Counted from the stretch's first letter, positions 34,044-60,976 are shown. The stretch is DNA of 64,000 nt from Halioglobus sp. (GCA_020443345.1 JAGRIH010000022.1:1-64000), one strand, 5' to 3'. Notes: generated by a model from the sequence alone, not told the origin. Translations and numbers: made by a program.

Positions 34044-34154
34044 TTGCTTGCTACCCTTGCGCTGCTGCTCCAGTCCCGCCATCGGCCCGATGGCTGCAGC
34101 GCTGGTCCGGCGCCCATTTGCAAAGGTTGGAACTATACCCATGGTACACGGCTA

Positions 34155-39185: not shown

Positions 39186-39244
39186 CATGCCCGCGTTGTC
39201 CGTGAGCGCGCGCACTACCGCGCGCGGCCGGGCCAGCGCGGAAA

Positions 39245-41155: not shown

Positions 41156-41187
41156 GTACCGTTCCAAATGCGGCCTCTCCTGTCGAT

Positions 41188-41634: not shown

Positions 41635-41737
41635 GTAGCTGCAAGTTTAAACATGATGGGCTCTGTGGCAGCGCCGGGAAGCCGGCGAGTGGATTGCAAT
41701 TGTAACGATCAGAGGCCGACAGAATGTGAAAAAAACG

Positions 41738-43676: not shown

Positions 43677-43778
43677 TGGCACGACTTCTCGAATTGACGG
43701 TTTTTTCACAAACCGTCGACAGTTTTACGACACCGGCCGGCGCATACTGCGACCGGTTTATTGCCTCAGTGTGGTGTC

Positions 43779-45737: not shown

Positions 45738-45744
45738 CCGCCGC

Positions 45745-46515: not shown

Positions 46516-46566
46516 TCCCACGCTTTGCGCAGCCAGCGCGCCCGCTTCGCGAGTATCGCTACATGC

Positions 46567-46780
46567 TTAACCGCCATATCTCACCGATCGGCAGACATAT
46601 CACGAGCCTTGCCCTTCGTTTCACTGTAAACAGCCTATTTGGTTTCTCGCCGGATGTTGCACGCTGTACGGCATTTTTCTCCTGCGGCCATAGCTATGGC
46701 TATGCCCACAGTCGGAAAATCCCGTACAGCGCACGATCTCTCGACCAGAATTCCAACTATCGGTGAGATATGGCGGTTAA
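46567..46780. mobile_element. 214-bp inverted-repeat element (MITE-like)
   Basis: Perfect 22-bp inverted repeats bound the element at 46567-46588 and 46759-46780; the core is CCGCCATATCTCACCGAT. The outermost TTAA on each side could be a duplicated target. Inside, a second imperfect inverted repeat (GCTGTACGG..ATTTTTC near 46663 and GAAAATCCCGTACAGC near 46715) flanks the palindrome GCCATAGCTATGGC. No open frame is present, so it would be a non-autonomous element or hairpin repeat. Partial copies occur at 13591-13649 and 31226-31249. The right repeat supplies the ribosome site (GGTGAG) and the ATG of the following sulfotransferase gene. Confidence 0.7.
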
Positions 46781-47714
46781 CCTCAGTGACGGCGTCAAGA
46801 AGGCGCTGATCATCGCCCCGACCCAGCTGCTGCCCGCCAATGCCCGCGTCGCCCTGCGCCGCAGGTATCTGGCGCGACTGGAGCTGGCCAAGGCGCAGCG
46901 CGCCGGTTTCCTGATCATCGGCCACCCCAAGAGCGGCAATACCTGGCTCAAGGTGATGATTTCGCGGCTCTACCAGCTGCGCCACGGTCTGCCCGAGTCG
47001 AAGCTGATCAATACCGACGAGTTCGCGCGCAGGATTCCCGGGATTCCCCGGCTGGCCGCCACCAACGGCTATTACAGTTACGAGGGCGAGGTGGGCAAAC
47101 TGTTGGCCGCGGGCGCGCCGGACAATCCGCTGCGCCACAAGCCGGTGCTGTTCCTGGCGCGCCATCCCATCGACATCGCCGTGTCCTGGTATCACCAGTT
47201 CACCAAACGCCAGTCCCGAGCCAAGCAGGAGCTGATCAACCACTGGATCGAACACCCCATCGACCGCCGCAGCATAGGGATGTGGGACTTCGTGCGGCAC
47301 TCCGACATCGGCCTGCCCAGCCTGATCGAGTACCAGAATACCTGGGCGCGCAATGTGCAGGAACTGGAGCGCGGGATGCTGGTCAAGTACGAACAGTTGC
47401 GCGCCGAGCCGGTGCCCACACTGCAGCGCATCACCGAATTGATGGGCGAGCGTTTCAGCGAAGAGGAAATTCGCGCGGCGGTGCAGTGGGGCTCTTTCGA
47501 GAACCTGCAGAAGCTGGAGACCAGCGGCACCTTCCGGCAGGGCGGCATGAAGCTGGTCGACCCTGGCGACCCCACTACCTTCAAGGTGCGGCGCGGCAAG
47601 GTCGGCGGCTACCGCGAGGACTTCGACGAGTCGCAGGTGGCGGAGCTGGAGGCCCTGGTGCGCGACAACATCGCGCCGCAACTGGGCTATTGCCGGGACG
47701 GCGCGGAAAGCTGA
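46770..47714 (+). CDS. Sulfotransferase, copy 1
   Basis: The 314-residue enzyme has the PAPS 5'-phosphosulfate loop HPKSGNTWLKVMISRLYQL (about 52-70), the 3'-phosphate motif ARHPIDIAVSWYHQFTK (about 131-147) and the C-terminal GGYREDFDESQVAELE. The sulfotransferase_1 family moves sulfate from PAPS to hydroxyls or amines. It is the most divergent of four copies. The ATG lies inside the right repeat of the TIR element, so the first four residues (MAVN) come from the element. It is followed by an ELM1 gene after 2 bp, so both are cotranscribed. Confidence 0.82.
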   Translation: MAVNLSDGVKKALIIAPTQLLPANARVALRRRYLARLELAKAQRAGFLIIGHPKSGNTWLKVMISRLYQLRHGLPESKLINTDEFARRIPGIPRLAATNGYYSYEGEVGKLLAAGAPDNPLRHKPVLFLARHPIDIAVSWYHQFTKRQSRAKQELINHWIEHPIDRRSIGMWDFVRHSDIGLPSLIEYQNTWARNVQELERGMLVKYEQLRAEPVPTLQRITELMGERFSEEEIRAAVQWGSFENLQKLETSGTFRQGGMKLVDPGDPTTFKVRRGKVGGYREDFDESQVAELEALVRDNIAPQLGYCRDGAES

Positions 47715-47716
47715 GG

Positions 47717-48811
47717 GTGGCGCCGCGCACCTGGGTCATTCTCGGCGACAAGCGCGGCGACAACGGCCAGGTGCAGACCATCGTCGAGGCGCTGGGTTGG
47801 CCGGTGGAGTACAAGTACGTGCACATGTTGCCGCAGTACGTGCTGGGTAAACCGCGCTACCGGCCCTCCCTCGAGCACCTGGACATGGCGCGCTCCGATC
47901 CCCTGGAACCGCCCTGGCCGGAGCTGATCATCACTGTGGGCCGGCGCCCGTCCATGGCCGCCCTGTGGGTGCGCCGGCAGTCCGGCAAGCGCACTAAAAT
48001 CGTACTGGTCGGCAAGCCCTCCGGGTACATGCTGGACTTCTCCCTGGTGGTGGCCAGCGCCGAGAACCAGATGCCGCCGCTGGCCAATTTTCTGCCCACC
48101 ACCCTGCCGCTGATGCGCGTGGAGCCGGCGGATGTGGCCGCCGAGGCACGGGCCTGGCGGGCGCGTTTCGCGCCCCTGCGTAAACCGCTGATCGCCATCC
48201 TGGTGGGCGGGCAGACCAACCCGTTCGTGATGAACCGCAAGGTCGCCCGAAAACTGGCCGCCACCGCGCGGTGGGTGGTCGAGGAACTGGGCGGCACCCC
48301 CTATGTGACCACCAGCCGCCGCACCACGCCGGAAGTGGTGGCCGTGCTGCGCGATAGCCTGCCGCCGCAGGCGGTGTTTTATGAGTGGAGCGCGCAGGCC
48401 CCCGACAACCCCTACCGCGCGCTGCTGGGCAGTGCCGACGGCTTTATCGTCACCGCCGACAGCGTCTCGATGATGGTGGAGGTGATTTACCTGCATAAAC
48501 CACTGGCCATTTTTCCCCTGCCGGGCGGCTGGTTGGGCGGTGTCGACCAGTGGCGCCGCTCGCTGGCGCACTGGCTGTTCAATCCGCGCCAGGTGTCGCG
48601 CGCGGACCGCTGGCGCCACCGTCTGGCCCGGGGCGTGTTTTATGTGGATGTGTTCAAGGTGCTGTGCGCCACGCGGGATTTCCGCGCCTTTCACCGCCTG
48701 CTGGTGGAGCGCTCTCTGGCGGTGTGGTCGGGGCAGGCCTTTCGGCGCGATACAGTGGCATTGCCGGACGATGTCGGTGCGGTGGTCAGGCGTATTGAAG
48801 GACTGTTTTGA
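47717..48811 (+). CDS. ELM1-family protein, copy 2
   Basis: This 364-residue GT-B-like protein starts at GTG 47717, directly after the sulfotransferase stop. It carries GDKRGDNGQVQTIVEALGW (about 10-28), PPWPELIITVGRRPSMAALW (about 71-90), ILVGGQTNPFVMN (near 168) and FIVTADSVSMMVEVIYLHKP (near 250-270). It is clearly ELM1 family but less like copies 1 and 3 than they are like each other. A C-terminal hydrophobic stretch (RGVFYVDVFKVLC) may touch the membrane. It is a candidate sugar transferase acting with the coupled sulfotransferase. Confidence 0.78.
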   Translation: MAPRTWVILGDKRGDNGQVQTIVEALGWPVEYKYVHMLPQYVLGKPRYRPSLEHLDMARSDPLEPPWPELIITVGRRPSMAALWVRRQSGKRTKIVLVGKPSGYMLDFSLVVASAENQMPPLANFLPTTLPLMRVEPADVAAEARAWRARFAPLRKPLIAILVGGQTNPFVMNRKVARKLAATARWVVEELGGTPYVTTSRRTTPEVVAVLRDSLPPQAVFYEWSAQAPDNPYRALLGSADGFIVTADSVSMMVEVIYLHKPLAIFPLPGGWLGGVDQWRRSLAHWLFNPRQVSRADRWRHRLARGVFYVDVFKVLCATRDFRAFHRLLVERSLAVWSGQAFRRDTVALPDDVGAVVRRIEGLF

Positions 48812-48812
48812 G

Positions 48813-49439
48813 TTAACGTATACGCAGTACGTTCTTCATGAAGTGGGTGCCGAAGCGACTGATGCGCTGGGCCGCGACGGCCAGGGGGCTCTGGTCGAGG
48901 TAATTCAGTTGCACCATGCGGCGCTCGCCGACAAAGCGCGTGTGGCCGTGCCAGGAGTGATCGGTGCGGCGAAACGCCAGCAGGGTGCCGCCCAGCGGCG
49001 GCACCTGGGCCGCGTAGTCCTCGATATCGCCTTTGGAGCGCAGTATGCGCAGCTGCCCGTCGGGGCTGTCCCAGGTCTCGTTGAAATACACCAGCACGGT
49101 AATGACCTTGCTCCTGTGGTCCGTGTGGATATTGCCGTCGGTGCGCTCGCAGAACTTGCGCACGGTGATGGTGGTGGGCAGCGCGGCCAGTTCCATGTCG
49201 AAGCGCTCACCCAGGGTGCGGGCGAGAGCCCCGTCCTGCAGCTCGTCCATCAGCGCACCAAAGGCCGGGCCGTAACGCAGGGAGTCGAGCGTGTGATTGG
49301 CGGCGCTGTCGATGGCGGGATAGTCGGCATTGATGCGCGCCAGCGTCTGCGCATCGATAAACGCCGGCGCCACCAGGTAATCGAATGGCTCGGAGTGCAG
49401 TGCGGCGTCGCGCACGGCCTGGAGGTTGGTCAGCGACAT
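48813..49439 (-). CDS. 2OG-Fe(II) oxygenase, copy 1
   Basis: The 208-residue protein has the jelly-roll iron triad: His 105 and Asp 107 in NIHTDHRSK, distal His 164 in DHSWHGH, and Arg 173/174 for 2-oxoglutarate. Family members hydroxylate proteins, lipids or small molecules. It converges with the ELM1 gene (1 bp gap), which suggests local co-inheritance rather than co-transcription. In a sphingolipid context it could hydroxylate the base or acyl chain; this is not shown by sequence. Confidence 0.75.
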   Translation of the reverse strand: MSLTNLQAVRDAALHSEPFDYLVAPAFIDAQTLARINADYPAIDSAANHTLDSLRYGPAFGALMDELQDGALARTLGERFDMELAALPTTITVRKFCERTDGNIHTDHRSKVITVLVYFNETWDSPDGQLRILRSKGDIEDYAAQVPPLGGTLLAFRRTDHSWHGHTRFVGERRMVQLNYLDQSPLAVAAQRISRFGTHFMKNVLRIR

Positions 49440-49585
49440 GGCCGTATTTTAGTACGGTCAGCGCGCGACAGGCAACGCCCGGTGCGGCGGCATGATAATC
49501 GTTTGCAGCAGTGTCTGGCTTAATGCGGCCGCGGTGTTTTTGGGTTATTATCCGGCGCCTTCGGGGCATCGGGACCAATCCGCAC

Positions 49586-50497
49586 ATGGGCGACAAGGCA
49601 CGGGTTGCAGCACGCCACATTATCATGCTGCTCTGCTGTTGGCTGAGCGCCCCGCGCCGCAAGAAAATCGAGCGCTGGCTGCGCGGTCGGGAAGAGTTCA
49701 TTAAATTGCAGCGCAGCGACTGGGTACTGATGAGCTGGGGCAAGTCGGGTCGCACCTGGCTGCGGGTCATGCTGTCGCGAGCCTACCAGCTGAAGGGCGG
49801 TCTGGACGCCAGCGAGCTGCTGGATTTCGATAACCTGCGCCGGCGCAACGCGCAGCTCCCCGCCGTGTTCTTCAGCCACAACAACTACCTGCGCGATTAC
49901 ACGGGCAACCGCGAATCAAAGCGCCACTTCCGGGGCAAGCGCATCGTCCTGCTGGTGCGCGATCCGCGCGACGTGGCGGTGTCCCAGTTTTTTCAGTGGC
50001 AGTTTCGCATGCGGCCCAACAAGAAGTTCATCAACGACTACCCGCCGCACGGCGCGGACATCAGTGTCTGGGATTTCGTGCTGGACCAGGAGGCGGGCGT
50101 GCCGCGTATCGTCGACTACTTCAACGGCTGGGCGCGCGCGATACCGGAACTTGAAGATGTACTGGTGGTGCGCTATGAGGACATGCGCGCCGACCCGGCG
50201 GCGGCGCTGGAGCGCATCCTGGCGTTCACCGGCACGCCGGTAAGCCCCGCACAGGTGCGCGAGGCGGTGGAGTTTGCGGCCTATGACAACATGAAAAAAA
50301 TGGAACAGGAGCAATTTTTCAAGGGCAGCGGCGCCCGGGTAAAACCCGGCGACAGGGACAATCCGCAGTCCTTCAAGGTGCGCAAGGCAAAGGTGGGCGG
50401 TTACCGGGATTATTTTACCGACGAGCAATGTCGGCAGCTCGATGGCCTGGTGGTGCAGCTGGATCCCCTGTTCGGCTACAGCGGAGAGCGGGCGTGA
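49586..50497 (+). CDS. Sulfotransferase, copy 2
   Basis: The 303-residue enzyme has SWGKSGRTWLRVMLSRAYQL (about 49-68) as PAPS loop and RDPRDVAVSQFFQWQFRMR (about 125-143) as 3'-phosphate site. FSHNNYLRDYTG, the YFNGWARA helix and VGGYRDYFTDEQ follow. Copies 2, 3 and 4 share these words almost exactly. ATG 49586 (MGDKARVAARH) is preferred over the longer frame from 49511. The stop overlaps the GTG of copy 3 by GTGA. Confidence 0.82.
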   Translation: MGDKARVAARHIIMLLCCWLSAPRRKKIERWLRGREEFIKLQRSDWVLMSWGKSGRTWLRVMLSRAYQLKGGLDASELLDFDNLRRRNAQLPAVFFSHNNYLRDYTGNRESKRHFRGKRIVLLVRDPRDVAVSQFFQWQFRMRPNKKFINDYPPHGADISVWDFVLDQEAGVPRIVDYFNGWARAIPELEDVLVVRYEDMRADPAAALERILAFTGTPVSPAQVREAVEFAAYDNMKKMEQEQFFKGSGARVKPGDRDNPQSFKVRKAKVGGYRDYFTDEQCRQLDGLVVQLDPLFGYSGERA

Positions 50498-51432
50498 CGC
50501 TGGCGCTCCAGAGCCTGCGCCAGGCGCTGCAGACCGGGCGCAAGAAACTGTCGCGCAAACTGCTGCACTGGCGCATGCGCGGCCAGAGCGAGGCGGACAT
50601 TCTGGCCGCTGAACGCAAACTGCGCGGCGTGGAGCAGTTCGACAAACTGCGCCGGGCCGACATCGTGGTGGTCTCCTTTGGCAAGAGCGGTCGCACCTGG
50701 CTGCGCGTGATGCTCTCGCACCTGTTTCGGGTGCTGCACGGCCTGCCCGAGAACGCCATCCTGGGCTTCGACAACTTCCACAACCTCAACCGCGCCGTGC
50801 CGAGAATATTTTTTACGCACGACAATTACATCAAGGATTTCACCGGCGATTTTCACTCCAAGCAGCCCTTTTACGACAAGCGCGTGGTGCTGCTGGCGCG
50901 GGACCCGCGCGATGTGGCGGTATCGCAGTTTTTTCAGTGGAAGTTCCGCATCAAGCCCTCCAAGGTGGCGATCAACAACTACCCGCCGCGCGGCAGCGAT
51001 ATCAGCCTGTTCGACTTTGTGATGGGCGACAACGGCGGCGGCATGCGCTCGGTGATCGACTACCTGAATCTGTGGGCACAGGAGGCGAGCAAGGTGTCGA
51101 ATTTTCACCTGCTGCGCTACGAGGATCTGCGCGCCGACCCGGGCGGCCAGTTGCACCGGCTGCTGGATTTCATGCAGGTGGCTGCCGGCGAGGAACACAT
51201 CGCCGCGGCGGTGGACTACTCCTCCTACGAGAATATGAAAAAGATGGAGAGCAGGCAGCAGTTCCGTCTGGCCGGCGGGCGCATGATGCCCCGCGACAGG
51301 GACAACCCGGACAGCTACAAGGTGCGCCGCGCCAAGGTCGGCGGCTACCGCGATTACTTCACCGACGAGGAAGTCGCCGCCATCGATGCCCGCGTGAAAT
51401 CGGAGCTCGATCCCTTGTTCGGCTATGGTTGA
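50494..51432 (+). CDS. Sulfotransferase, copy 3
   Basis: This 312-residue paralogue starts at GTG 50494, coupled to copy 2. It has SFGKSGRTWLRVMLSHLFRV (about 61-80), ARDPRDVAVSQFFQWKFRIK (about 136-155), FFTHDNYIKDFTG and the tail GGYRDYFTDEEVAAID. The HDNY/HNNY segment, shared by copies 2-4 and absent from copy 1, likely lines the acceptor pocket. Tandem duplication of copies 2 and 3 suggests recent expansion to two sulfation positions. Confidence 0.82.
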   Translation: MTLALQSLRQALQTGRKKLSRKLLHWRMRGQSEADILAAERKLRGVEQFDKLRRADIVVVSFGKSGRTWLRVMLSHLFRVLHGLPENAILGFDNFHNLNRAVPRIFFTHDNYIKDFTGDFHSKQPFYDKRVVLLARDPRDVAVSQFFQWKFRIKPSKVAINNYPPRGSDISLFDFVMGDNGGGMRSVIDYLNLWAQEASKVSNFHLLRYEDLRADPGGQLHRLLDFMQVAAGEEHIAAAVDYSSYENMKKMESRQQFRLAGGRMMPRDRDNPDSYKVRRAKVGGYRDYFTDEEVAAIDARVKSELDPLFGYG

Positions 51433-51444
51433 GTCAGGGTCCGT

Positions 51445-52335
51445 TCATGCGGCGCGAACCAGATCCAGCGCGTCGGTGCGCAGATGTCCCCGCGACATCT
51501 CCTCGCGCAGGTCGTCTTCGCTGATCACGCCGTCGCGCAGGCAGCCTTTCACCAGGTCGAAAAAAAACTGCTCCTGCCTCGGGTCCGGGTGCCGTCCGTA
51601 GGTGCCGGCCAGGCCGTAGTCGCCGAACAGGGCGCGGCGGGCGCGGCGCAGCCAGTGGCGCGGCGGGAAAAATTGGAAGGTATCCGCCATGCGGTAATCG
51701 ACCTTGAGGCCGGTCTTCCAGGGCTGGGTCTTGCGCTTGGTGTTGTGCAGCAGTTTGGTCTGTGGCGAGAGATGGTCGAAATCGTTCCACTCGTTTTCAA
51801 ACAGGCCGATAGTGTCCGGGTCTTCCAGTTTCAGGGAGATCCAGTCCATGTAATCCCGCCTGGCGGGCCGGAACATGTCGGTGAAATTTTCTTCGAAGCG
51901 CCAGTGTTCGAGTTGTGAGCAGTCCAGCAGCATCACGCTGCTGGCATAGGCGCCCTTGCGGCCCTTGCGGCCCGACTTGGGGCGGCACATGATAGCCTTG
52001 CCCTGCATGTCGCGGTGCAGCAGTTCCCAGATATCGCCCAGGGCAAAGACGTCCGGGTCGATCACTACGGCGCGGCCGGTGTAGTTCATCAACTGCGGTG
52101 GGGCAAAGCGCAGCGGGGTGAACGACTGCAGGTCGTTGTTGAGCCAGGGGCGGTATTCGCCGTCGCGCAGGTAGAGCTGGCCCTCGCGCTGCTGCATGCA
52201 GGGGTAGTCTTTTGTCTCGATGAGTTTGACGTCGAACTCGGCGGCATGGCTGGAGTGTTTTTTAAGGGAATAGCGACTGACCACAGCGCCGAGCTTTTGC
52301 TTGTGGTTGGTGTGGATAAATACGGTTGGCTTCAC
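51445..52335 (-). CDS. GT8-like glycosyltransferase, copy 1
   Basis: The 296-residue protein starts TVFIHTNHKQKLGAVVSRYSL and has LRFAPPQLMNYTGRAVVIDPDVFALGDI, here listed as the DxD-like VIDPDVFA near 90. Near 210 comes LLHNTKRKTQPWKTG, which recalls the GT8 (glycogenin/LgtC) HxxGxxKPW element. I know no named family for it, so GT8-like is an inference from this pattern. Three paralogues occur in the window, always next to a sulfotransferase or ELM1 gene. It is convergent with sulfotransferase copy 3. Confidence 0.58.
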   Translation of the reverse strand: MKPTVFIHTNHKQKLGAVVSRYSLKKHSSHAAEFDVKLIETKDYPCMQQREGQLYLRDGEYRPWLNNDLQSFTPLRFAPPQLMNYTGRAVVIDPDVFALGDIWELLHRDMQGKAIMCRPKSGRKGRKGAYASSVMLLDCSQLEHWRFEENFTDMFRPARRDYMDWISLKLEDPDTIGLFENEWNDFDHLSPQTKLLHNTKRKTQPWKTGLKVDYRMADTFQFFPPRHWLRRARRALFGDYGLAGTYGRHPDPRQEQFFFDLVKGCLRDGVISEDDLREEMSRGHLRTDALDLVRAA

Positions 52336-52436
52336 GCAGCATCGCCCTTTCGCGGATTGGTGTGGTAGTTTACCGCTGGCGCAAGCGATGATAAACGGCC
52401 GGGTGTGGCCTTTTTCAAGGCGTGGTTGGAGTACGG

Positions 52437-53534
52437 GTGGGCGCGCGAATTATTGAAGTCTGGTGCCTGCTGGGCAGGAAAGCCGGTGATAATACCCAGG
52501 TGCTGGCCCTGGCCGAGGAGCTCGGCTACGGCTACCGCCGCAAGTACGTGTGCGCCCGGCCCTGGGAACTGCTGGTGCATCTGCGCCGCGCGCCGACCCT
52601 GGCCGGTATCGACCGCGTGGCGTCCTCTGCGCTGACCCCCCCCTGGCCGGATCTGGTGATCAGCGCCGGGCGGCGCAACGAGCCGGTGGCCCGCTGGCTG
52701 CGGCAGCGCTCGGGCGGGCGCTGCCGCCTGGTGCATATCGGGCGGCCCTGGGCGCCGCTGGAGGTCTGGGACCTGGTGGTGACCACGCCGCAGTACTTCC
52801 TGCCACGCCAGCCCAACGTATTGCACAACACGCTGCCGCTGCACCGCCTGGCAGCGGACGAGCTGGCGGCGGCCGCCGCCAGCCTGGAGAGCGCTGTTGC
52901 CCATCTGCCACGGCCGCGCATTGCGCTGCTGGTGGGCGGTGACAGCGGCCGTTTCGTCATGACGCCGGCCAAGGGCGAGCGCCTGGGCGCGCTGGCGAAC
53001 AGCCTGGCGCGCGCCGCCGGCGGTTCGCTGTTGGTCAGCGACAGCGCGCGCACGCCAGCGCTTGCCGGGGATGCGCTGCGGCGGCAGCTGAGTGCCCCCC
53101 ACTACGACTACCGCTGGGCCGACGGCGGCGACAACCCCTACCGCGCCTTTCTCGGTCTGGCGGATGCCTTCGTGGTGACCGGCGAGTCCATGTCCATGCT
53201 GGGGGAGGCGGCGGCCATGGCGCGGCCCCTGTTTATCTTTGATCTGGACGATCCCAGTGGTCCCTGGTGGCGCCTGCCCCACAACCATCGCTACAAGCCG
53301 CTGAGTCATCGCCTGGCCATGCGCCTCGGGCCGGCGCGCATGCGCCGGGACATCGGCAGGATCCAGAATGCGCTGGTGGCGCGCGGCGCAGCGAGCTGGC
53401 TGCAGCCGCAGATGATCGAGTCGGCGGGCACCGCCCTGCGTGCGTCCCCGCCGGCGCCGCCCTGTCGCGCGGCGACCAACGCGGAGTTACAGGCGGCGGC
53501 GCAGGCAGTCAGGCGGCTTTTGACACCTGACTGA
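52437..53534 (+). CDS. ELM1-family protein, copy 3
   Basis: The 365-residue protein is a close match to copy 1 in PPWPDLVISAGRRNEPVARW, VHIGRPWAPLE, TTPQYFLPRQPNVLHNTLPL and LVGGDSGRFVM, with VVTGESMSMLGEAAAMARPL near the C-terminus. GTG 52437 with GGAG five bases upstream is chosen; the family text ARIIEVWCLLGRKAGDN follows. It is flanked by two convergent GT8-like genes. Its 3' end overlaps the next gene by 26 bp. Confidence 0.76.
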   Translation: MGARIIEVWCLLGRKAGDNTQVLALAEELGYGYRRKYVCARPWELLVHLRRAPTLAGIDRVASSALTPPWPDLVISAGRRNEPVARWLRQRSGGRCRLVHIGRPWAPLEVWDLVVTTPQYFLPRQPNVLHNTLPLHRLAADELAAAAASLESAVAHLPRPRIALLVGGDSGRFVMTPAKGERLGALANSLARAAGGSLLVSDSARTPALAGDALRRQLSAPHYDYRWADGGDNPYRAFLGLADAFVVTGESMSMLGEAAAMARPLFIFDLDDPSGPWWRLPHNHRYKPLSHRLAMRLGPARMRRDIGRIQNALVARGAASWLQPQMIESAGTALRASPPAPPCRAATNAELQAAAQAVRRLLTPD

Positions 53535-54453
53535 GGGGGTGCAGCGGGGCCGGCGGCAGGTCCGGCGTGCGCTCCAGCACCTGCAGGGCGTCGTGGCGCA
53601 CGTGGTTTTGCGCCATCTCGTCGCGCAGAAATTCCTCGGTGACCTTGCCCTGCTCCAGGCACTCCTTGAGCAGGCCGAAGAAAAAGTTCTCCTGGTTTTG
53701 GTCCGGGTGCGGCTTGTAGTTGCCCAGGAAGGCGTATTCCCCGAACAGCCTGCGCCGCGCGCGCATCACCCAGGCGGCTGGGGGAAACAGGCGAAAGCGC
53801 TCGGCGGGGCGCCAGTCAGTGGGCAGGCCGGTTTTCCACGGCTGGGTCTTGCGGCGCGTGGTGTGCAGCATTTTGGTCTCGGGCGTAAACGTGTCGAAAT
53901 CGTTCCACTGCGCCTCGAAAAAACCGATGCTGGCGCGGTCCTCCTCCTTGAGACAGATCCAGGGCTGGTAGTCCTGGGTGAAATCGAACATGGCCTCGAA
54001 TTTGGCCTGCGCATCCCAGTGGGTCAGTTGCGCACAGTCCAGCAGCATCACGCTGCTGGCCATGCAGCGGTCGATCAGCCCCTTGGGTCCCGAGCGCATG
54101 CGGCACAGGACGGCCTTGCCCTGCATATCGCGGCTGAGCAGTTCCCAGATATCGGCGGCGGCGAAAATATCCGGGTCGATGACCACCGCGCGGCCGGCGT
54201 AGCCCATCAGTTTGGGGGGCATGAAGCGCGTCGGCGTGAAGGACTGCAGATCGTCGTTGAGCCAGACGCGTTTGACGCCGTCGCGCAGGTACTTCTGGCC
54301 CTCGTGGGCGGCGAAAAACGGGTAGTCCCGGCTGTCCATGATCTGCACATCGAACTTGTCGTTGTTGCTGGAATACCGGCGCAGGGCGTGCTCGGCCACG
54401 ATGGCCCCGGTGATCTGCTTGTGGTTGGTCTGGATAAATACGCCGGCTTTCAT
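53509..54453 (-). CDS. GT8-like glycosyltransferase, copy 2
   Basis: The 314-residue protein opens MKAGVFIQTNHKQITGAIVA and contains VVIDPDIFAAADIWELLSRD (about 93-112) and MLHTTRRKTQPWKTGLPTDW (about 205-224). GGAGG seven bases before ATG 54453 supports this start over the frame from 54486. The variation between copies lies mainly in the middle region that would face the acceptor. Substrate is unknown; the neighbours point to a lipid head group. Confidence 0.58.
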   Translation of the reverse strand: MKAGVFIQTNHKQITGAIVAEHALRRYSSNNDKFDVQIMDSRDYPFFAAHEGQKYLRDGVKRVWLNDDLQSFTPTRFMPPKLMGYAGRAVVIDPDIFAAADIWELLSRDMQGKAVLCRMRSGPKGLIDRCMASSVMLLDCAQLTHWDAQAKFEAMFDFTQDYQPWICLKEEDRASIGFFEAQWNDFDTFTPETKMLHTTRRKTQPWKTGLPTDWRPAERFRLFPPAAWVMRARRRLFGEYAFLGNYKPHPDQNQENFFFGLLKECLEQGKVTEEFLRDEMAQNHVRHDALQVLERTPDLPPAPLHPLSQVSKAA

Positions 54454-54525
54454 GGGGATCCTCCGCGTACGGGTTTTGGCTGACAAAAACTATAGAGGAA
54501 AGGGCTCCGTAGCGCCATGTTGCCG

Positions 54526-55464
54526 CTATTTGAACAGGCCGCGGCGGTAGAGCTTCCAGAAGAAGCCCCACAGGAACAGCAGTGGCGCCCGCCTGACCCG
54601 CGCGGGAATCACCACCGGTTCGCCGGTGTGCCGCTCCAGCTTCCACGCCACGTAGTCCAGCCCTCCACTGAAGGTAAACAGCCCCTTGAGCAGACGCGCC
54701 ACGGACAGCAGCTTGCCCTGCGCGCGGCGCAGCCCCCATGCCAGTGTGCACCAGCGGCGCCGCACCGGGCTGCACTGGCTGGCGTAGCACAACTGGCCGT
54801 CCTCGGCGTACACGGCGAACGGAAAGTTCAGCGTGCCGGCGCAGTGCCGGGTGAGCGCGGCATAAAAATCCGCGGATGAGCGCGCCAGCTCCGCGGCCCG
54901 CGCGCTGCGTTCCGTGCGCAGTTCGGTGGCGTAGCTAAGTGCCAGCGCGCGCTGCCACAGTTCGGTCACCGCGCCCCGTGCGGGCAGAGCGGGAACCGCT
55001 CGTGTCAGCAGAGTGTGCGCGGCTTGCAGCAGCGCCTGTGCGACCCGTTCCCGGGTCGCTGTATCGCGGCTGTACACGATGCGAGTGGGCTGGGCAAAAC
55101 GGCCCCAGATATAGGACTCAAACCAGGCCGGCGAACAGCCGCGCCGGAAGTCGCCCAGGGAGATCACGGTGACCTTGCTGCGCAGGGTGCGTGAGCCCGC
55201 CTCGACCTCGGCATAATAAACGTTGGGCGGCAGCAGCCAGTTGGCCGCCGCCGGCAGCGCGCGGCGGTAGGCGCAGCGATAGCTGTCGCAGATCAGGTAC
55301 ACATCCAGCAGCCCGTCGCAGATATCGCCGCTGCGCAGGCAGGAGCCGTACAGCAGTGCGCAGCAAATGGCCTGGTGGTGGCGCTCACGCAGTTGCAGCA
55401 GCAGTTGTGCCAGCAGGGGGTCGGCGTCGGGATCCGGCCCGGGCACCTCGGGATAGGCGCTCAC
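54526..55464 (-). CDS. Nucleotidyltransferase-like protein of the lipid-kinase operon
   Basis: The 312-residue protein begins at GTG 55464, overlapping the kinase stop by GTGA. An early nucleotidyltransferase-like segment, LLYGSCLRSGDICDGLLDVY (about 33-52), has GS followed by D..LDV as in pol-beta/Tam41-type enzymes. The rest has two Arg-rich stretches and a hydrophobic C-terminal segment (APLLFLWGFFWKLYR) that may attach to the membrane. I infer a CDP- or NDP-lipid forming role next to the kinase; Caulobacter ceramide-phosphoglycerate genes include a comparable kinase and nucleotidyltransferase pair. Weak evidence otherwise. Confidence 0.6.
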   Translation of the reverse strand: MSAYPEVPGPDPDADPLLAQLLLQLRERHHQAICCALLYGSCLRSGDICDGLLDVYLICDSYRCAYRRALPAAANWLLPPNVYYAEVEAGSRTLRSKVTVISLGDFRRGCSPAWFESYIWGRFAQPTRIVYSRDTATRERVAQALLQAAHTLLTRAVPALPARGAVTELWQRALALSYATELRTERSARAAELARSSADFYAALTRHCAGTLNFPFAVYAEDGQLCYASQCSPVRRRWCTLAWGLRRAQGKLLSVARLLKGLFTFSGGLDYVAWKLERHTGEPVVIPARVRRAPLLFLWGFFWKLYRRGLFK

Positions 55465-56429
55465 AGCCGCAGGAACTCCAGGGCGCGGCTGGCGCTGATG
55501 TCCACGGCGCCCCCCGGTGTGAGGATCTCGCCGTCCAGGTTCAATTTGCCGTCCAGGCTCAGGCAGACTCGGTGTGTGTTGTGGCTGCGATAGCCGGCTT
55601 CCGGAGTGGCGTGGCGGTTGGCGCGGCCGCGTAGTATCGACCCGAAGGTGCGGGCGAAGCGGGTACAGTGCTGCTCGATCAGCGTGACCCGGATCGGGCC
55701 CGGGCCGCTGCCCCAGAACGGTCGCATCCCGAAGGCCAGGCGCTGCAGGGTGCTGACGGCCAGAATCAGCGTGTCGTGGCGCGTGGCGCCGGCCCCGTCC
55801 AGCGCGATATCGACTGCCACGTGACGGTTGAAGGCGGGGTCGTCGCGCCACACCCCCCACACGGTGCGCAGGGTGCCCAGCGCCAGGCTGAAGTCGTCGC
55901 GCAGGCCCCGGGCGTGGATTTCCCGATGCGCGTATTCGGTACCCTGGATGATGGCCCCTGCGCCCAGGAACATACCGTAGTGAACAGTCTGCTCAGTGCG
56001 GCAGCTCACCCGCAACAGGGGGCGTCGCGCCAGTTTGCCGCGGGTCTCGCGCGGGCCCTCGCACCAGCGACAGAAGCGCTCGGTGGCCCGGGCCAGCGAA
56101 CCGCGAATGCCGATGTCGCCGGCGTTCATGTTGGCCGTGCCGCCGGGCAGCAGCGCGATCAGCGGCGTTTCTTGGAACAGTCCGCCGTCCAGGAGGTCAC
56201 CCAAGATGGCTGAACTGGTGCCGTCGCCGCCGTTGATGGCCAGCACCGCGATGCCGCGTGCGGCCAGTGAGGAGAGGGCGCCGCGGATGTCGGCGGGGCT
56301 GTGGGTGACGATGTGGTGAATGGCAGGGCAGCGCTCGATGCGTGCGCGGATGCGATCAAACTGGTCGCGGTTGTGGCCGCTGGCCGGGTTGCTGATCAGC
56401 CCGACAGGGTTCCCCTGCCCCGTAGTCAC
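55461..56429 (-). CDS. Diacylglycerol/ceramide kinase-like lipid kinase
   Basis: The 322-residue enzyme is a DAGK-catalytic family kinase: phosphate loop text NPASG (14-18), catalytic GGDGTS (67-72), and LLPGGTANMNAGDIG (about 92-106). A C-terminal beta-sandwich ends LNLDGEILTPGGAVDI. These kinases phosphorylate diacylglycerol, sphingosine or ceramide; a Caulobacter member (CpgB) is a ceramide kinase. Its GTG overlaps the upstream gene's stop and its stop overlaps the next GTG, so all three are coupled. In this island ceramide is the likely substrate. Confidence 0.82.
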   Translation of the reverse strand: MTTGQGNPVGLISNPASGHNRDQFDRIRARIERCPAIHHIVTHSPADIRGALSSLAARGIAVLAINGGDGTSSAILGDLLDGGLFQETPLIALLPGGTANMNAGDIGIRGSLARATERFCRWCEGPRETRGKLARRPLLRVSCRTEQTVHYGMFLGAGAIIQGTEYAHREIHARGLRDDFSLALGTLRTVWGVWRDDPAFNRHVAVDIALDGAGATRHDTLILAVSTLQRLAFGMRPFWGSGPGPIRVTLIEQHCTRFARTFGSILRGRANRHATPEAGYRSHNTHRVCLSLDGKLNLDGEILTPGGAVDISASRALEFLRL

Positions 56430-57376
56430 CTGGCGGGGTCGGGTGTGGCCGGCTGAGGTGTGGCCGGCTGAGGTGTGGCCGGCTGAGGTGTGGCCCGCTG
56501 ATCTATCGAGCCATCTTGCAAACGGCCGCCCCAGGTAAGGTCGTCCCGCATCTGCACCGCCCTCAGGTTGATATGGGCGGCACCCAGGCGCGGTGCGGTG
56601 CCGCGCAGTTGCAGCGGCAGGCCGGTGGCCTCGTCAAACAGTATGGTGATGCGCCCGTACAGCCCCAGCAGGCTGAAATCCGGCTCGTCTTGCTGCGTGC
56701 CAACCGGTGTAACCTGCAGGGTGACGGACTGCGTGGCGCGCTGTCCCGCGACGTGTTCGCCGCCGATTATCTGGAAATCGGCGTCCACGGTGATGCCGTG
56801 GCCCCGGCTCATCCGCACCCGGTAGAAATTCAAATCCGTGTGCACCAGAATCTCCGCGGACTGCGCATCGCCTGCATTGAAGCGATCGGCCAGCGGCAGC
56901 AGAGCGTAGTCAGCGGTGATGGCCGTCGCGTGGGCCGCCTCGGGATAGTCGATTTCCCTGCGGCTGCTCAGGGGCCACTCCCGCGGCGGGGCGGCGGCCT
57001 GTCCCCGCGGTTCGCGCCGTTCGCGCAGGATAGAGTCTGTCCGGTAGTCATAGAGCTTGTAGCGCTGCTCCTCGTTGCCGTGGCTGAGCCGCTCGCGCTG
57101 CAGCACGGCGCCGTTCCGCGCAGCCAGCAGCAGGGTGATCTGCTCGGAATTGTCGGCCACCGAACTGTCGGCGTGCAGCAACCAGCGGGACTGCTCGGGT
57201 CCGGCGGGGGTCAGCTCCACACGCGATGCGGCCGTGGCCCAGAACGCCCGCTGTTCAAACTCCAGCACCTGCCAGCGCGGCAGGTCGGGCACCCTTGTCT
57301 TCGCCAGGACACCGCCGATGTGTCCGCCCAGCAGCAGGCAGACCAGGACATGGTGCGGGCGCAGTCGGCCCGTCAT
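56426..57376 (-). CDS. Exported protein of the lipid-kinase operon (possibly DUF3108-like)
   Basis: The 316-residue product has a signal peptide (residues 1-24: MTGRLRPHHVLVCLLLGGHI.. to VLA) and a beta-rich body. Features include VLEFEQRAFWATAASRVELT (about 35-54) and ILFDEATGLPLQLRGTAPRLG (near 265), the latter recalling DUF3108 periplasmic proteins. It ends in four ATPQP-type repeats encoded by a 15-bp tandem repeat. ATG 57376 follows from the signal peptide; the frame is open to 57598. It is the first gene of the kinase operon and may bind or move the product in the periplasm. Function unknown. Confidence 0.6.
   Translation of the reverse strand: MTGRLRPHHVLVCLLLGGHIGGVLAKTRVPDLPRWQVLEFEQRAFWATAASRVELTPAGPEQSRWLLHADSSVADNSEQITLLLAARNGAVLQRERLSHGNEEQRYKLYDYRTDSILRERREPRGQAAAPPREWPLSSRREIDYPEAAHATAITADYALLPLADRFNAGDAQSAEILVHTDLNFYRVRMSRGHGITVDADFQIIGGEHVAGQRATQSVTLQVTPVGTQQDEPDFSLLGLYGRITILFDEATGLPLQLRGTAPRLGAAHINLRAVQMRDDLTWGGRLQDGSIDQRATPQPATPQPATPQPATPDPAR
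56443..56502 (-). repeat. Four 15-bp tandem repeats encoding a Pro-rich tail
   Basis: Units of gtgtggccggctgag (plus-strand reading) begin at 56443, 56458 and 56473 and are identical; the fourth at 56488 has two changes. They encode a TPQPA five-residue repeat at the C-terminus of the exported protein. Unit number could vary by slippage. Confidence 0.85.
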
Positions 57377-57668
57377 GACACGCAGCTCCCACGGGGGTAG
57401 GCCGGGCGATCGGGGTGCACGCTGGACCAGCCGCCACCGGCGGGACCGGGCCACAGCCCGGCCCGCTCCAGCAAAGCTTGGTGGACAATCCTGAATCCCA
57501 TATCGATGCCGTGTCTTGTAACGCGTGCCGAGTGGCCACTGTATAGCAGGACGCCGCTCTTGTGGTGAACACCGCTCGAAAGCTGTTAAAAATACCACAG
57601 AATCTTGAGCGTGCCGGAGTCATCCGCTACCCTGCTGCGATCGAGCTGCCCTGATCAGGGGAACCGGC

Positions 57669-58595
57669 ATGCATATCGTTCAAAAGCGGCTGACCAAGTG
57701 GCTGGTGCGCGCCATTTCCGTGTTTCTACCCGAAGCGAGGGCGCATCAGCTGGAGCGCTGGCGCCGCGGGCGGGAGGAGTTCTGGAAGTACAACCGCTGC
57801 CAGTACATTTTCGCCTCCTACGGCAAGAGTGGGCGCACCTGGGTGCGGGTCATGATCTCCCGTTACTACCAGCTCGTGTACCGATTGCCGGACAACATCC
57901 TCATGGGGTTTGACAACTACACGCACCTGAACCGTGAGATTCCACGGATATTCTTCACCCACGACAACTACCTGCGCGGCTACACCGGCAACATCAATTC
58001 CAAGAAAGATTTCTACCACAAGAAAACCATACTGCTGGTACGCAACCCCATCGACGTGGCGGTGTCGCAGTTTTTTCAGTGGAAGTACCGCATGCGACCG
58101 GCCAAGAAGGCGATGAACCGGTACCCGGAGCACGAGGCGGACATCGCAGTGTACGATTTCGTCAGGAATGAGGATCGGGGCCTGTCGCACATCATCGATT
58201 TTATGAACGACTGGGCTCGCGAGCTGCCGCACATCGAAACACTGCTGGTGGTACGCTATGAAGACCTGCGCGCCCATCCCGAGCGCGAGATGGCGCGCAT
58301 CGTCGAATTCCTCGGGCTGCAGGCTGACGGGGACTACCTGCGGGACACCGTGGAATTTGCGTCGGTGGAAAACCTGCGCAAGAAAGAGCGGGAAAATTAC
58401 TTCTGGCGCAGCGGCAGCCGGGTGCAGGCCCGGGACGTCAACGACCCCAACACCTTCAAGGTACGCAAGGCCAAGGTGGGGGGTTACCGCGACTATTTTG
58501 ACGACGCGCAGGTGGCCGAGCTGGACGCGATGGTCGAGGCCCGGCTGCAGCCGGTGTTCGGCTATACCCGCGCAGAGCTGGCAGAGGTCGGATGA
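57669..58595 (+). CDS. Sulfotransferase, copy 4
   Basis: The 308-residue enzyme has SYGKSGRTWVRVMISRYYQL (about 51-70), VRNPIDVAVSQFFQWKYRMR (about 125-144), FFTHDNYLRGYTG and GGYRDYFDDAQVAELD. AGGGG lies seven bases before the ATG. Its stop overlaps the GT8-like copy 3 start by ATGA, opening a four-gene coupled operon (sulfotransferase, GT8-like, 2OG oxygenase, phosphopantetheinyl transferase). It is the copy most tightly tied to the carrier-protein activating enzyme. Confidence 0.83.
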   Translation: MHIVQKRLTKWLVRAISVFLPEARAHQLERWRRGREEFWKYNRCQYIFASYGKSGRTWVRVMISRYYQLVYRLPDNILMGFDNYTHLNREIPRIFFTHDNYLRGYTGNINSKKDFYHKKTILLVRNPIDVAVSQFFQWKYRMRPAKKAMNRYPEHEADIAVYDFVRNEDRGLSHIIDFMNDWARELPHIETLLVVRYEDLRAHPEREMARIVEFLGLQADGDYLRDTVEFASVENLRKKERENYFWRSGSRVQARDVNDPNTFKVRKAKVGGYRDYFDDAQVAELDAMVEARLQPVFGYTRAELAEVG

Positions 58596-59515
58596 TGGAC
58601 AAGTGCGTATTCATTCACACCAATGAGCGCCAGTGGCTGGGCGCTCTGGTGGCGGAATATTCCCTGCGCCGCAACTCCCGCCACGCACAGCAGTTCGACG
58701 TCAGGTTTATCCACACCCGGGATCACCCCTTCCTGGCCGCGCGCGAGGGTCAGCGTTTTTTGCGCGGCGGCACCTCCCGTGTGTGGCGCATGGATGACCT
58801 GCAGTCATTTACCCCCCTGCGCTTTGCCGCACCGCAGCTGATGAACTGGCAGGGCCGGGCCGTGGTCATCGACCCGGATGTGTTTGCCGTGGGCGATATA
58901 TACGATCTGCTCACCCGCGATATGGGCGCTGCGGCGGTGATGGGTCGCCACCGCTCCGGCCGGGCGGAGAAAGGCTACCAGGTGGCCACCAGCGTGATGC
59001 TGATGGACTGTGCCCGCCTGGCACACTGGGACGTGGAACAGGAGTTTGGCCAGCTGTTTCGTGGGGAAAAGGACTACAAGGAATGGATGGTGCTGGCCTA
59101 TGAAGACCCGGCCCATATCGGCTACCTGGAGGACTACTGGAACGATTTCGACCACCTGGATGCCAACACGCGCCTGCTGCACAATACCAAGCGGCGCACC
59201 CAGCCCTGGAAAACCGGCCTGCCGGTGGATTTCACCCCCGCCGACAAGTTCAAGGACAAGCCGGTGCTGGCCTCGCTCAATCGCATGCGCGCCGGCCTGT
59301 TCGGTGAATACGCGCTGCTGGGGCGCTACCGCGAACACCCGGACCGGGCACAGGAGCAGTTCTTCTTCGGCCTGCTCAAGGAGTGCCTGGCCTGCGGCCA
59401 TGTCAGCGAGGCGCTGGTGCGCGCGGAAATGCGCAATAATCACGTGCGCCACGACGCCTTCGAGGTGCTCGAGCGCACCCCGGACCTGGCGAAGCTACCG
59501 GTGAAAGCGGCATGA
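58592..59515 (+). CDS. GT8-like glycosyltransferase, copy 3
   Basis: The 307-residue product has KCVFIHTNERQWLGALVAEY, VVIDPDVFAVGDIYDLLTRD (about 89-108) and LLHNTKRRTQPWKTGLPVDF (near 205-224). It lines up with copies 1 and 2 along the whole length. It overlaps the sulfotransferase upstream and the oxygenase downstream (ATGA each), so the three products are probably made together and may act in sequence on one lipid. Confidence 0.58.
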   Translation: MMDKCVFIHTNERQWLGALVAEYSLRRNSRHAQQFDVRFIHTRDHPFLAAREGQRFLRGGTSRVWRMDDLQSFTPLRFAAPQLMNWQGRAVVIDPDVFAVGDIYDLLTRDMGAAAVMGRHRSGRAEKGYQVATSVMLMDCARLAHWDVEQEFGQLFRGEKDYKEWMVLAYEDPAHIGYLEDYWNDFDHLDANTRLLHNTKRRTQPWKTGLPVDFTPADKFKDKPVLASLNRMRAGLFGEYALLGRYREHPDRAQEQFFFGLLKECLACGHVSEALVRAEMRNNHVRHDAFEVLERTPDLAKLPVKAA

Positions 59516-60228
59516 ACTACCTGGACATCGACACATTGCGCGCACTGCGCCGCGAGGAGTTCCTGGCGATCAGGCCCTACCCCTATTACAACACGCGGGG
59601 GGTGTTGACCGAGGCCGGGTTTCAGGAGCTGCTGGACAACATGCCGGCGCTGGAGCTGTTCGAGCGGAAATTCGGCTACGAGCGCCGCGCCGGGCAGGCG
59701 CCCCACGACCGCTACTCCCTGGAATACGCCCCGGGCATGGACGTGCCCGGCCCCTGGCGGGCCTTTATCGACGAGTTGTGCGGCGATGCCTACCGGGGTG
59801 AGGTCGCGCGTCTGCTGGGCGCCGACAAGGTGGAGTTTCGTTTTCACTGGCACTACACGCCCAGCGGCTGCGATGTCTCACCGCACTGCGATGCGCGCCG
59901 GGAGCACGGCTCGCACCTGTTTTATTTCAACTCCGAGGATGACTGGGACCCCGCCTGGGGCGGCTCCACGCTGGTGCTGGACGACGGCGGCCGCCTGAGT
60001 TACGACTCCGCGCCGGCACTGGAGGAATTCGACGCGGTGTACGAGTGCGACTCGATCGGCAACTACAGCTCCCTGATGTTGCGCACCGATCACGCCTGGC
60101 ACGCGGTGCGCGCCATCCAGTGCCCCGAAGGCCGCCTGCGCCGTGTGTTTATCGTGGTGGTAAACCCGGACAAGCTGTTCTGGAAAGTCCGTGACCGCCT
60201 TATCGGCAAGCGCATCCAGCGCTTCTGA
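59512..60228 (+). CDS. 2OG-Fe(II) oxygenase, copy 2
   Basis: The 238-residue protein has iron ligands His 125 and Asp 127 (SPHCDAR), a third His at 194/197 (RTDHAWHAVR) and Arg 210/211 for 2-oxoglutarate. YFNSEDDWDPAWGGST, with its WGG turn, is usual for the prolyl-hydroxylase-like 2OG family. The C-terminus is basic. Fixed in a coupled operon with sulfotransferase and GT8-like genes, it probably hydroxylates the same lipid or a sugar on it. It shares little text with copy 1 apart from the triad. Confidence 0.78.
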   Translation: MNYLDIDTLRALRREEFLAIRPYPYYNTRGVLTEAGFQELLDNMPALELFERKFGYERRAGQAPHDRYSLEYAPGMDVPGPWRAFIDELCGDAYRGEVARLLGADKVEFRFHWHYTPSGCDVSPHCDARREHGSHLFYFNSEDDWDPAWGGSTLVLDDGGRLSYDSAPALEEFDAVYECDSIGNYSSLMLRTDHAWHAVRAIQCPEGRLRRVFIVVVNPDKLFWKVRDRLIGKRIQRF

Positions 60229-60976
60229 CACGCCGCTGCGCCTGGCTGCCGACGAACTGCACCTGTGGCTGGGGGCGGCGACCACCGCCTCCGAACCCTT
60301 TGTCAGGCAGGTGCTTTCGCGCTATGCGGCGATCGCGCCGGCACAGTGGCGCTTTTGTCGCAACCGGCACGGCAAACCGGCCCCGCTACAGGCGCCGCGG
60401 CCACTGGCCTTTAATCTCAGCGACAGTCGCCACTGGCGTATCTGCGCGGTGAGCGCCGGCGCTGCCGTCGGGGTGGACCTGGAATACTGTGATCCGCAGC
60501 GCGATGTGTTGCGGCTGGCGCGGCGTTACTTCAGCGTGCGCGAAATGGCCGCGCTGGTGGCCTGTGACGAGAGCGAGCGCCGTCGCCGTTTTCACGACTA
60601 CTGGACGCTCAAGGAAGCCTGTATCAAGGCCCGGGGGGCGGCGCTGGGCGCCGAGCTGGAGCACACCGCCTTTCAATTGCGGCTGAGCGCGGCAGCGGGG
60701 GCGAGTGCGGGCGATGGAATCGGCACTATCCTTCGCGAGCCGCCCGGGTGCAACCGGGCCCACTACTGCCTGGCCGAGCCGCTGCCGGACTATCGGCTGG
60801 CCACCTGCTGGCTGCCCGCGGCCCGCCGCCGGCCGCACCTGCGCCTGCTGCACCTGTCGCCCGGTGGCGCCGCTACCGACCTGCCGCTGCGGGTGCGGGC
60901 CGTGTCGGCGCCGCTGGCAATACCCCGACACGCTCCGGCAAGAGAATCCCCGGTAGCGGCGGGACACGGCGTTTAG
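60191..60976 (+). CDS. 4'-phosphopantetheinyl transferase (Sfp type)
   Basis: The product has the Sfp/AcpT signatures GVDLEYCD (about 95-102, Mg ligands) and FHDYWTLKEACIKARG (about 135-150, W-x2-KEA). It transfers phosphopantetheine from CoA to carrier-protein serines. GTG 60191 overlaps the oxygenase by 38 bp, giving 261 residues. Its natural local substrate is the ACP at 33.8 kb. The C-terminal tail beyond about 225 is low complexity and may not be structured. Confidence 0.85.
   Translation: MTALSASASSASDTPLRLAADELHLWLGAATTASEPFVRQVLSRYAAIAPAQWRFCRNRHGKPAPLQAPRPLAFNLSDSRHWRICAVSAGAAVGVDLEYCDPQRDVLRLARRYFSVREMAALVACDESERRRRFHDYWTLKEACIKARGAALGAELEHTAFQLRLSAAAGASAGDGIGTILREPPGCNRAHYCLAEPLPDYRLATCWLPAARRRPHLRLLHLSPGGAATDLPLRVRAVSAPLAIPRHAPARESPVAAGHGV

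Follow-up and report, generated by a model that had tools for sequence, protein, structure and literature searches.

What molecule is served by the array of sulfotransferases and predicted glycosyltransferases at positions 46770-60228 of a stretch of Halioglobus sp. DNA (GCA_020443345.1, JAGRIH010000022.1:1-64000; the whole 64,000-nucleotide stretch analyzed is called the window here)? A preliminary description had proposed stepwise glycosylation and O-sulfation of one lipid, a bacterial counterpart of sulfatide. Judging from its genes, the cluster very probably builds a ceramide lipid that is decorated with sugars and sulfate and shipped to the cell surface, and we consider it likely that its products form one family of anionic glycosphingolipids, which the locus would make and export as an outer-membrane lipid resembling lipopolysaccharide (LPS). 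About half of the genomes bearing the cluster no longer have the lipid A genes scored, lpxC and lpxK, so there the lipid probably takes the place of LPS.

The span encodes four Sulfotransfer_1 proteins (ST1 to ST4), two ELM1 proteins (ELM1b and ELM1c), three GT8-like proteins (GT8a to GT8c), and two 2-oxoglutarate (2OG)-Fe(II) oxygenases. A third ELM1 gene (ELM1a, 34152-35231) lies outside it, divergent from genes for an acyl carrier protein (ACP) and serine palmitoyltransferase (SPT). The genes of the span are as follows:

46770-47714, plus strand: ST1, sulfotransferase dependent on 3'-phosphoadenosine 5'-phosphosulfate (PAPS) (PF00685, 74 bits; motifs PKSGNTW, RHPIDIAVS, and RRGKVGGYREDF)
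47717-48811, plus strand: ELM1b, glycosyltransferase (PF06258, 170 bits)
48813-49439, minus strand: 2OG1, 2OG-Fe(II) oxygenase (PF13640, above cut-off)
49511-50497, plus strand: ST2, sulfotransferase (PF00685, 88 bits; motifs; SULT-type PDB matches)
50494-51432, plus strand: ST3, sulfotransferase (PF00685, 90 bits; motifs; probable GTG start overlapping the ST2 stop)
51445-52335, minus strand: GT8a, predicted GT8-fold glycosyltransferase (alignment with GT8b)
52422-53534, plus strand: ELM1c, glycosyltransferase (PF06258, 200 bits; predicted GT-B fold)
53509-54486, minus strand: GT8b (DPDxFA and QPWKTGL motifs; predicted fold like LgtC, Z 16.5; co-occurrence with SPT)
54526-55464, minus strand: CpgC-like, Tam41-related cytidylyltransferase (weak Tam41_Mmp37 match in 8 of 12 orthologues, best E 3.5e-6)
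55461-56429, minus strand: CpgB-like (ceramide) kinase (PF00781; NGGDG motif invariant)
56426-57400, minus strand: exported protein with no assigned function (no Pfam match above cut-off; homologues adjoin CpgB in most loci)
57669-58595, plus strand: ST4, sulfotransferase (PF00685, 85 bits; motifs)
58592-59515, plus strand: GT8c, glycosyltransferase (alignment with GT8 members)
59512-60228, plus strand: 2OG2, 2OG oxygenase (weak PF13640; PDB 9ei6, prolyl 4-hydroxylase-type, E 5e-5)

The nine transferases in this list, with the divergent ELM1 gene and the two oxygenases, are those given in the preliminary description, and Pfam, fold, and PDB comparisons bear them out. The Sulfotransfer_1 matches (46770-47714, 49511-50497, 50428-51432, and 57669-58595) score 74-90 bits against a cut-off of 22, and the ELM1 (PF06258) matches (47717-48811, 52422-53534, and 34152-35231) score 170-207 bits against a cut-off of 27, while each of the GT8-like proteins (51445-52335, 53509-54486, and 58592-59515) falls under the Pfam GT8 cut-off. 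Two open reading frames (ORFs), 45771-46766 and 47687-48694, were dropped, as they match no families and overlie the PAP2 gene and ELM1b, respectively.

All four sulfotransferases carry the 5'-phosphosulfate-binding (5'-PSB) loop, the 3'-phosphate-binding (3'-PB) motif, and a C-terminal RKxxxGxxxxxF, the signature of PAPS-dependent sulfotransferases. Among proteins of solved structure in the PDB, ST2 matches SULT-type sulfotransferases, both eukaryotic and bacterial. Structure prediction, one of the checks that the preliminary description had suggested, gave a GT8 fold for GT8b and a GT-B fold for ELM1c. The GT8b model, built with 22 relatives (predicted local distance difference test, pLDDT, 83), best matches LgtC, WbbM, GlyE, and glycogenin at Z 14-16.5, with LgtC aligned over 222 residues at 3.5 A (VIA-align Z 16.5), and its predicted fold is that of GT8 enzymes despite the sub-cut-off Pfam score. 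Across the 22 members of the GT8-like alignment, D104-P-D106 (the DxD motif) and H208...Q215-P-W217-K218 are invariant; these can be written as DPDxFA and H...QPWK, the latter, C-terminal motif being a variant of HxxGxxKPW. Searching the ELM1 profile against PDB sequences returned nothing useful; the fold search succeeded instead, with the ELM1c model (pLDDT 89) matching GT-B enzymes and UDP-GlcNAc 2-epimerases. With PF06258 scores above the cut-off and the GT-B fold, these proteins are members of the ELM1 family.

Several of the genes are coupled by overlapping starts, as had been claimed from the first inspection. Overlaps of 4 bases join ST4 to GT8c, GT8c to 2OG2, and the CpgC-like to the CpgB-like gene, and a further one probably joins ST2 to ST3: judged from sequence, the start of ST3 is probably the GTG at 50494, which would give a 4-base overlap with the ST2 stop, and this later start is supported by the length of ST3 in relatives (308-321 amino acids). 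The same array stands in the same order in the relatives whose loci were read, so its composition is not chance.

The transferase array occupies one end of a sphingolipid locus of ~40 kb that resembles the ceramide-phosphoglycerate (CPG) cluster of Caulobacter, and all three ELM1 matches of the window's genome sit in this locus. The remaining genes considered here are the following:

22537-23469, minus strand: LpxL-like acyltransferase a (PF03279; conserved in locus)
23482-24114, minus strand: fatty-acid hydroxylase family protein (PF04116; conserved in locus)
24083-25072, minus strand: LpxL-like acyltransferase b (PF03279; start revised)
25155-26024, minus strand: CerR-like NAD-dependent epimerase/reductase (Rossmann/SDR-like sequence; start uncertain)
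26114-27895, minus strand: AasR-like fatty acyl-AMP/ACP ligase (PF00501; 47-54% to plasmid-cluster fatty acyl-AMP ligases)
28267-29436, plus strand: CerS-like (bacterial ceramide synthase) GNAT protein (PF00583; 44-47% in plasmid SPT clusters)
29442-30260, plus strand: nucleoside triphosphate (NTP) transferase, MobA/CofC-like, counterpart of CC_1153 (PF12804)
30304-31275, minus strand: metallophosphoesterase, counterpart of CC_1158 (PF00149; conserved)
31300-32550, minus strand: MurA (TIGR01072, 576 bits against a cut-off of 393)
32550-33761, minus strand: SPT (NCBIfam equivalog NF047599, 593 bits against a cut-off of 500)
33801-34043, minus strand: ACP (AcpR; conserved beside SPT, with annotated ACP homologues in plasmid clusters)
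34152-35231, plus strand: ELM1a, GT-B glycosyltransferase divergent from ACP-SPT (PF06258, 207 bits; aligned)
35193-36935, minus strand: MsbA-like ABC exporter (PF00664 and PF00005; MsbA equivalog 244 bits, below the cut-off of 602)
37012-38100, minus strand: LptG2-like permease (PF03739)
38079-39215, minus strand: LptF2-like permease (PF03739)
60191-60976, plus strand: 4'-phosphopantetheinyl transferase, possible ACP activator (PF01648)

By homology, a Caulobacter-type ceramide pathway is present, with SPT, a dedicated ACP, AasR, CerS, and CerR clustered together. The gene at 32550-33761 is the SPT from which ELM1a had been described as divergent; 21197-22453 was first taken as SPT from Pfam and proved by NCBIfam to be AvtA. 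CerR is a putative assignment by position and homology, as the gene's place between AasR and LpxL-like b is conserved and it is homologous to annotated SDR genes of plasmid SPT clusters. The gene for MurA, a peptidoglycan precursor enzyme, lies directly downstream of SPT here and in many related loci.

The CpgC-like and CpgB-like genes (54526-56429) sit inside the array itself, between GT8b and ST4. The CpgB-like protein is a DAGK_cat protein with an NGGDG motif encoded beside the CpgC-like gene, and the latter's product gave no match against PDB; both are putative assignments by family likeness. No Pfam match to CpgA (CDP-alcohol phosphatidyltransferase) or CpgD was found among the window ORFs scanned, the rest of the genome not having been searched, and the NTP transferase at 29442-30260 is not assignable to CpgD. 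For export, the locus has a flippase (the ABC exporter) and a second-type LptF/LptG pair, which is the only pair found in the window's genome. Between LptF2 and ST1, the block 39245-46515 encodes two alkaline-phosphatase-fold membrane enzymes (PF00884), DagK, a histidine kinase/response regulator pair, and a PAP2 protein whose best NCBIfam match, below cut-off, is lipid A phosphatase; since LptF2 adjoins ST1 in relatives, this block seems to have been inserted here.

The expected co-occurrence with SPT held for the GT8-like gene. Among 78 relatives from 30 families of one order (GT8b at E < 1e-60, SPT at E < 1e-100), GT8b and SPT were found in the same 25 genomes, and the remaining 53 had neither, except for two weak GT8 matches; as the genomes are related, the Fisher value of 6e-21 makes them look more independent than they are, but within the family the two genes are patchily distributed. 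Both genes are usually on one contig, with synteny over ~30 kb, and where contigs allow, the conserved order is the CerS end, SPT, ELM1a, ABC-LptG-LptF, ST1-ELM1b, 2OG1, ST2-ST3, GT8a, ELM1c, GT8b-CpgC-CpgB, and ST4-GT8c-2OG2. GT8b is the most constant GT8 member across SPT-positive loci, and the smallest versions (G009 and G056, the latter from another family of the window's order) retain ELM1a, ELM1c, GT8b, and one sulfotransferase.

A scan of GTDB species genomes placed the GT8-like family in Halieaceae, Porticoccaceae, Thiogranum, Thiohalobacter, Chromatiales, Methylothermaceae, and the alphaproteobacterium Roseovarius, in many cases accompanied by SPT, CerS, CpgB, and CpgC. Halieaceae, to judge by what the closest matches are called, is the likely family of the window; its members preserve the gene order, and a large part of the cluster is found again in Thiogranum, Thiohalobacter, and Roseovarius, with the cluster present in Porticoccaceae as well. 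Of 67 loci of at least 10 kb, 37 hold a ceramide or CpgB/C marker, 34 of these having a sulfotransferase too; the other 30 have no marker within the stretch fetched, and some of them are second loci of genomes holding the main one. In Thiogranum and relatives (L126, L127, and L130), second clusters combine a sulfotransferase, ELM1b, an LpxL-like and a GT8-like gene with no ceramide gene within the stretch, and at loci L031, L034, and L035, SPT-positive genomes have a second GT8a-2OG1 cassette at another site, accompanied by GT8b and a fatty-acid hydroxylase gene in L031 and L034.

These distributions bear on whether the transferases act on the ceramide at all. The locus could instead make CPG as in Caulobacter, with the sulfotransferases and glycosyltransferases acting on a separate, merely neighboring surface polysaccharide. 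The presence of CpgB- and CpgC-like genes agrees with this, as do some GT8-like or sulfotransferase clusters found elsewhere without ceramide genes in the stretch fetched and a GT8 copy in Thiogranum (L121) standing alone among housekeeping genes. We nevertheless judge it improbable: GT8-like genes and SPT co-occur exactly, the CpgC/CpgB pair lies in conserved order between GT8b and ST4, and the window ORFs scanned include no CpgA and no polymerase, flippase, or capsule-export family. A capsule or polysaccharide locus, the outcome named in the preliminary description as contrary to its proposal, was rejected on the lack of polymerase and capsule-export families in those ORFs; the isolated L121 copy is not in a capsule locus either.

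Under the favored interpretation, that of an exported glycosphingolipid, SPT with its ACP, AasR, CerR, and CerS would make ceramide, by homology to the Caulobacter pathway. The CpgB-like kinase would phosphorylate it, and the Tam41-related CpgC-like enzyme may activate or extend the phosphate. Sugars would then be added by the ELM1 (GT-B) and GT8-fold enzymes, with GT8b and ELM1c present as the constant pair and the others as accessories; the four sulfotransferases would place sulfate from PAPS onto those sugars, and the 2OG oxygenases might hydroxylate sugar or lipid. Judging by co-occurrence, the MsbA-like transporter would flip the product and LptF2/G2 would pass it to the Lpt bridge and LptD. 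We infer that one lipid is the common acceptor of the ELM1, GT8, and sulfotransferase enzymes.

If such a lipid reaches the outer membrane, what becomes of LPS in these genomes? An LptF/LptG pair was found in 50 of the 53 SPT-negative genomes (the three without are 60-81% complete), as against only 7 of 25 SPT-positive genomes holding a pair in addition to the one in the sphingolipid locus. Fifteen SPT-positive genomes, the window's own included, yielded the locus pair and no other; G002 and G034 yielded no LptF/G, and G022, with a single pair on another contig, was not classed. Of the 25 SPT-positive genomes, 13 lack LpxK, versus none of eight SPT-negative controls, and 12 of those 13 also lack LpxC, versus none of three such controls; the thirteenth (G004, 81% complete) has LpxC. 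The 12 genomes without LpxC and LpxK are 87-100% complete, seven at 98% or more, and most have only the sphingolipid-locus LptF/G. LptD is kept in 23 of the 25 SPT-positive genomes, including 11 of these 12, and KdsB, the synthetase of CMP-Kdo (Kdo, 3-deoxy-D-manno-oct-2-ulosonic acid), is likewise kept in 11 of the 12.

The kdsB site itself records the loss. In lpxK-positive genomes the order is murB-kdsB-lpxK, usually followed by msbA and then exbD-exbB, whereas in all 11 lipid-A-less genomes read at this site kdsB adjoins exbD-exbB, with lpxK and msbA gone from contigs otherwise intact. The absence of lpxC, lpxK, and lptFG might in principle be an artifact of metagenome assembly, with the lipid coexisting with LPS everywhere, since most of the genomes appear to be metagenome-assembled (87-100% complete, with G022 and G034 incomplete) and LptF/G was not found at all in G002 and G034. 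We find this very hard to credit, as seven of the genomes reach 98-100% completeness, the same 12 genomes have lost both lpxC and lpxK although the two genes sit on separate contigs, and the disappearance of lpxK and msbA from between their neighbors inside intact contigs in 11 genomes is not an assembly gap. In a small FastTree phylogeny of seven housekeeping proteins, the losses fall at about five places, all in SPT-positive lineages, although several nodes are weak. We infer that on about five occasions lipid A gave way to a ceramide that is glycosylated, sulfated, and exported along the Lpt route. The genome of the window itself (96% complete) keeps LpxC, LpxK, and MsbA with only the locus LptF/G, and thus may represent an intermediate state or may miss a contig.

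Several observations weigh against a sulfated lipid that generally replaces LPS. Only 4 of the 11 Sulfotransfer_1 matches of the window's genome are in the locus; the seven elsewhere (contigs C3, C17, C29, C54, and C69) mean that other sulfated products may exist. The G031 fragment has no sulfotransferase, and none was found in the two plasmid SPT clusters read, those of Roseomonas mucosa p1-AD2 (L161) and Diaphorobacter sp. JS3051 pDCB2 (L162), which have CerS, ACP, ligase, GT8-like, and ELM1 genes, the GT8-like gene adjoining one annotated 'ELM1/GtrOC1 family putative glycosyltransferase'. The sulfotransferases are thus accessory to the cluster, and the GT8-ELM1 combination looks like a general sphingolipid glycosylation pair to which sulfation is an addition. 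Lipid A loss was scored by LpxC and LpxK; no msbA was seen at the kdsB site of G006, G016, and G053 either, although these three have lpxK, so that a missing msbA is no sufficient sign by itself; KdsB could be kept for a capsule; and lipid A genes persist in 13 SPT-positive genomes, the window's among them, so replacement is not general.

The simplest clusters (the plasmids and G031) and the several sulfotransferases outside the locus would also suit a scheme in which ELM1 and GT8 enzymes glycosylate the sphingolipid while the sulfotransferases modify some other molecule, be it a protein, the lipid A core, or a small metabolite. This seems unlikely to us: of the 19 relatives for which the locus was read, 18 have sulfotransferase genes there, distant ones such as Roseovarius and Thiohalobacter have them too, and these genes overlap GT8c and adjoin ELM1b.

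The interpretation in the preliminary description finds partial support. It had made no mention of the association with lipid A gene loss, which is the larger point, nor of the CpgB- and CpgC-like genes. On the evidence of these genes, lipid A appears to have been lost repeatedly in nature among free-living marine Gammaproteobacteria, and the loss is tied to one defined cluster that brings glycosylation, sulfation, and export genes of its own. Sister genera that differ in whether they keep lipid A genes offer a ready comparison for asking what an outer membrane requires when LPS is gone and whether a different lipid can travel on the Lpt machinery. The cluster also suggests functions for two poorly understood families, the bacterial ELM1 proteins and the GT8-like family, and is a candidate marine source of sulfated sphingolipids. 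With SPT clusters found on plasmids, one of them IncP conjugative, sphingolipid synthesis may be mobile.

Set beside known systems, the likeness to eukaryotic sulfatide stands as a concept, that of a sulfated glycosphingolipid, and is otherwise loose, as nothing shows 3-O-sulfogalactose. The eukaryotic sulfatide sulfotransferase belongs to a different family from those of the locus, and a ceramide-1-phosphate route is likely here, together with bacterial export machinery. The locus looks more like a ceramide-based LPS assembly and export system than a sulfatide pathway. Sphingomonadales share sphingolipid glycosylation, by glucuronosyl- and galactosylceramide synthases, whereas GT8-fold, ELM1, and sulfation genes are found here; homologues of those synthases were not noticed, no search for them having been made. 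Sphingolipids are known to take the place of LPS in Sphingomonas and in Caulobacter mutants made in the laboratory.

Sphingolipids occur in some LPS-lacking bacteria (PMC11324152, PMC13028669), the anionic Caulobacter sphingolipid CPG2 can stand in for LPS (PMC11324152, PMC13228409, PMC12275187), and the CC_1168-CC_1152 region carries LptC2/F2/G2, which include a second LptF and LptG, and a flippase (PMC11324152, PMC13228409). The CPG2 locus of Caulobacter crescentus, as far as the available part of its description goes (PMC11324152), shares with ours the ceramide genes, the CpgB/CpgC-like pair, the metallophosphoesterase, the NTP transferase, the second LptF/LptG, and the flippase. Ours differs in having no CpgA among the ORFs scanned, and its three ELM1 proteins, three GT8-fold proteins, four sulfotransferases, and two 2OG oxygenases have no counterpart listed for the Caulobacter region in that part. 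The ELM1 protein KdoT of Acinetobacter baumannii transfers Kdo from CMP-Kdo to the lipooligosaccharide core in vitro (PMC12856342); it shares PF06258 and the GT-B fold with the proteins described here and acts on the core of an outer-membrane glycolipid (PMC12856342, PMC10936431), whereas ELM1 here is tied to a ceramide anchor, also in genomes without lpxC and lpxK. By analogy with KdoT, and with KdsB retained in 11 of the 12 such genomes, we hypothesize that the ELM1 enzymes attach Kdo, and part of their donor may be CMP-Kdo. It is possible, and we put it forward tentatively, that the product is a second kind of LPS: a ceramide-anchored, sulfated glycolipid containing Kdo (via ELM1), which has a flippase and LptF/G to itself, is exported by way of LptD, and has repeatedly displaced lipid A in Halieaceae and in one other family of Gammaproteobacteria.

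Black Sea metalipidomics has reported sulfated bacterial sphingolipids, the sulfate-1-deoxyceramides, in which the sulfate sits on the fatty acyl chain, without sugar and with no sulfotransferase named (PMC11334938), whereas here it would be on sugars. In the open-access literature we found no description of sulfated proteobacterial glycosphingolipids, Roseovarius sphingolipids, or naturally LPS-less Gammaproteobacteria with sphingolipids, and one may exist elsewhere. Bacterial sphingolipid loci and the substitution of sphingolipids for LPS are already known kinds; what is new is the complement of sulfotransferases, GT8-fold, and ELM1 enzymes, how widely it is conserved, and its link to natural losses of lipid A genes that recurred in Gammaproteobacteria.

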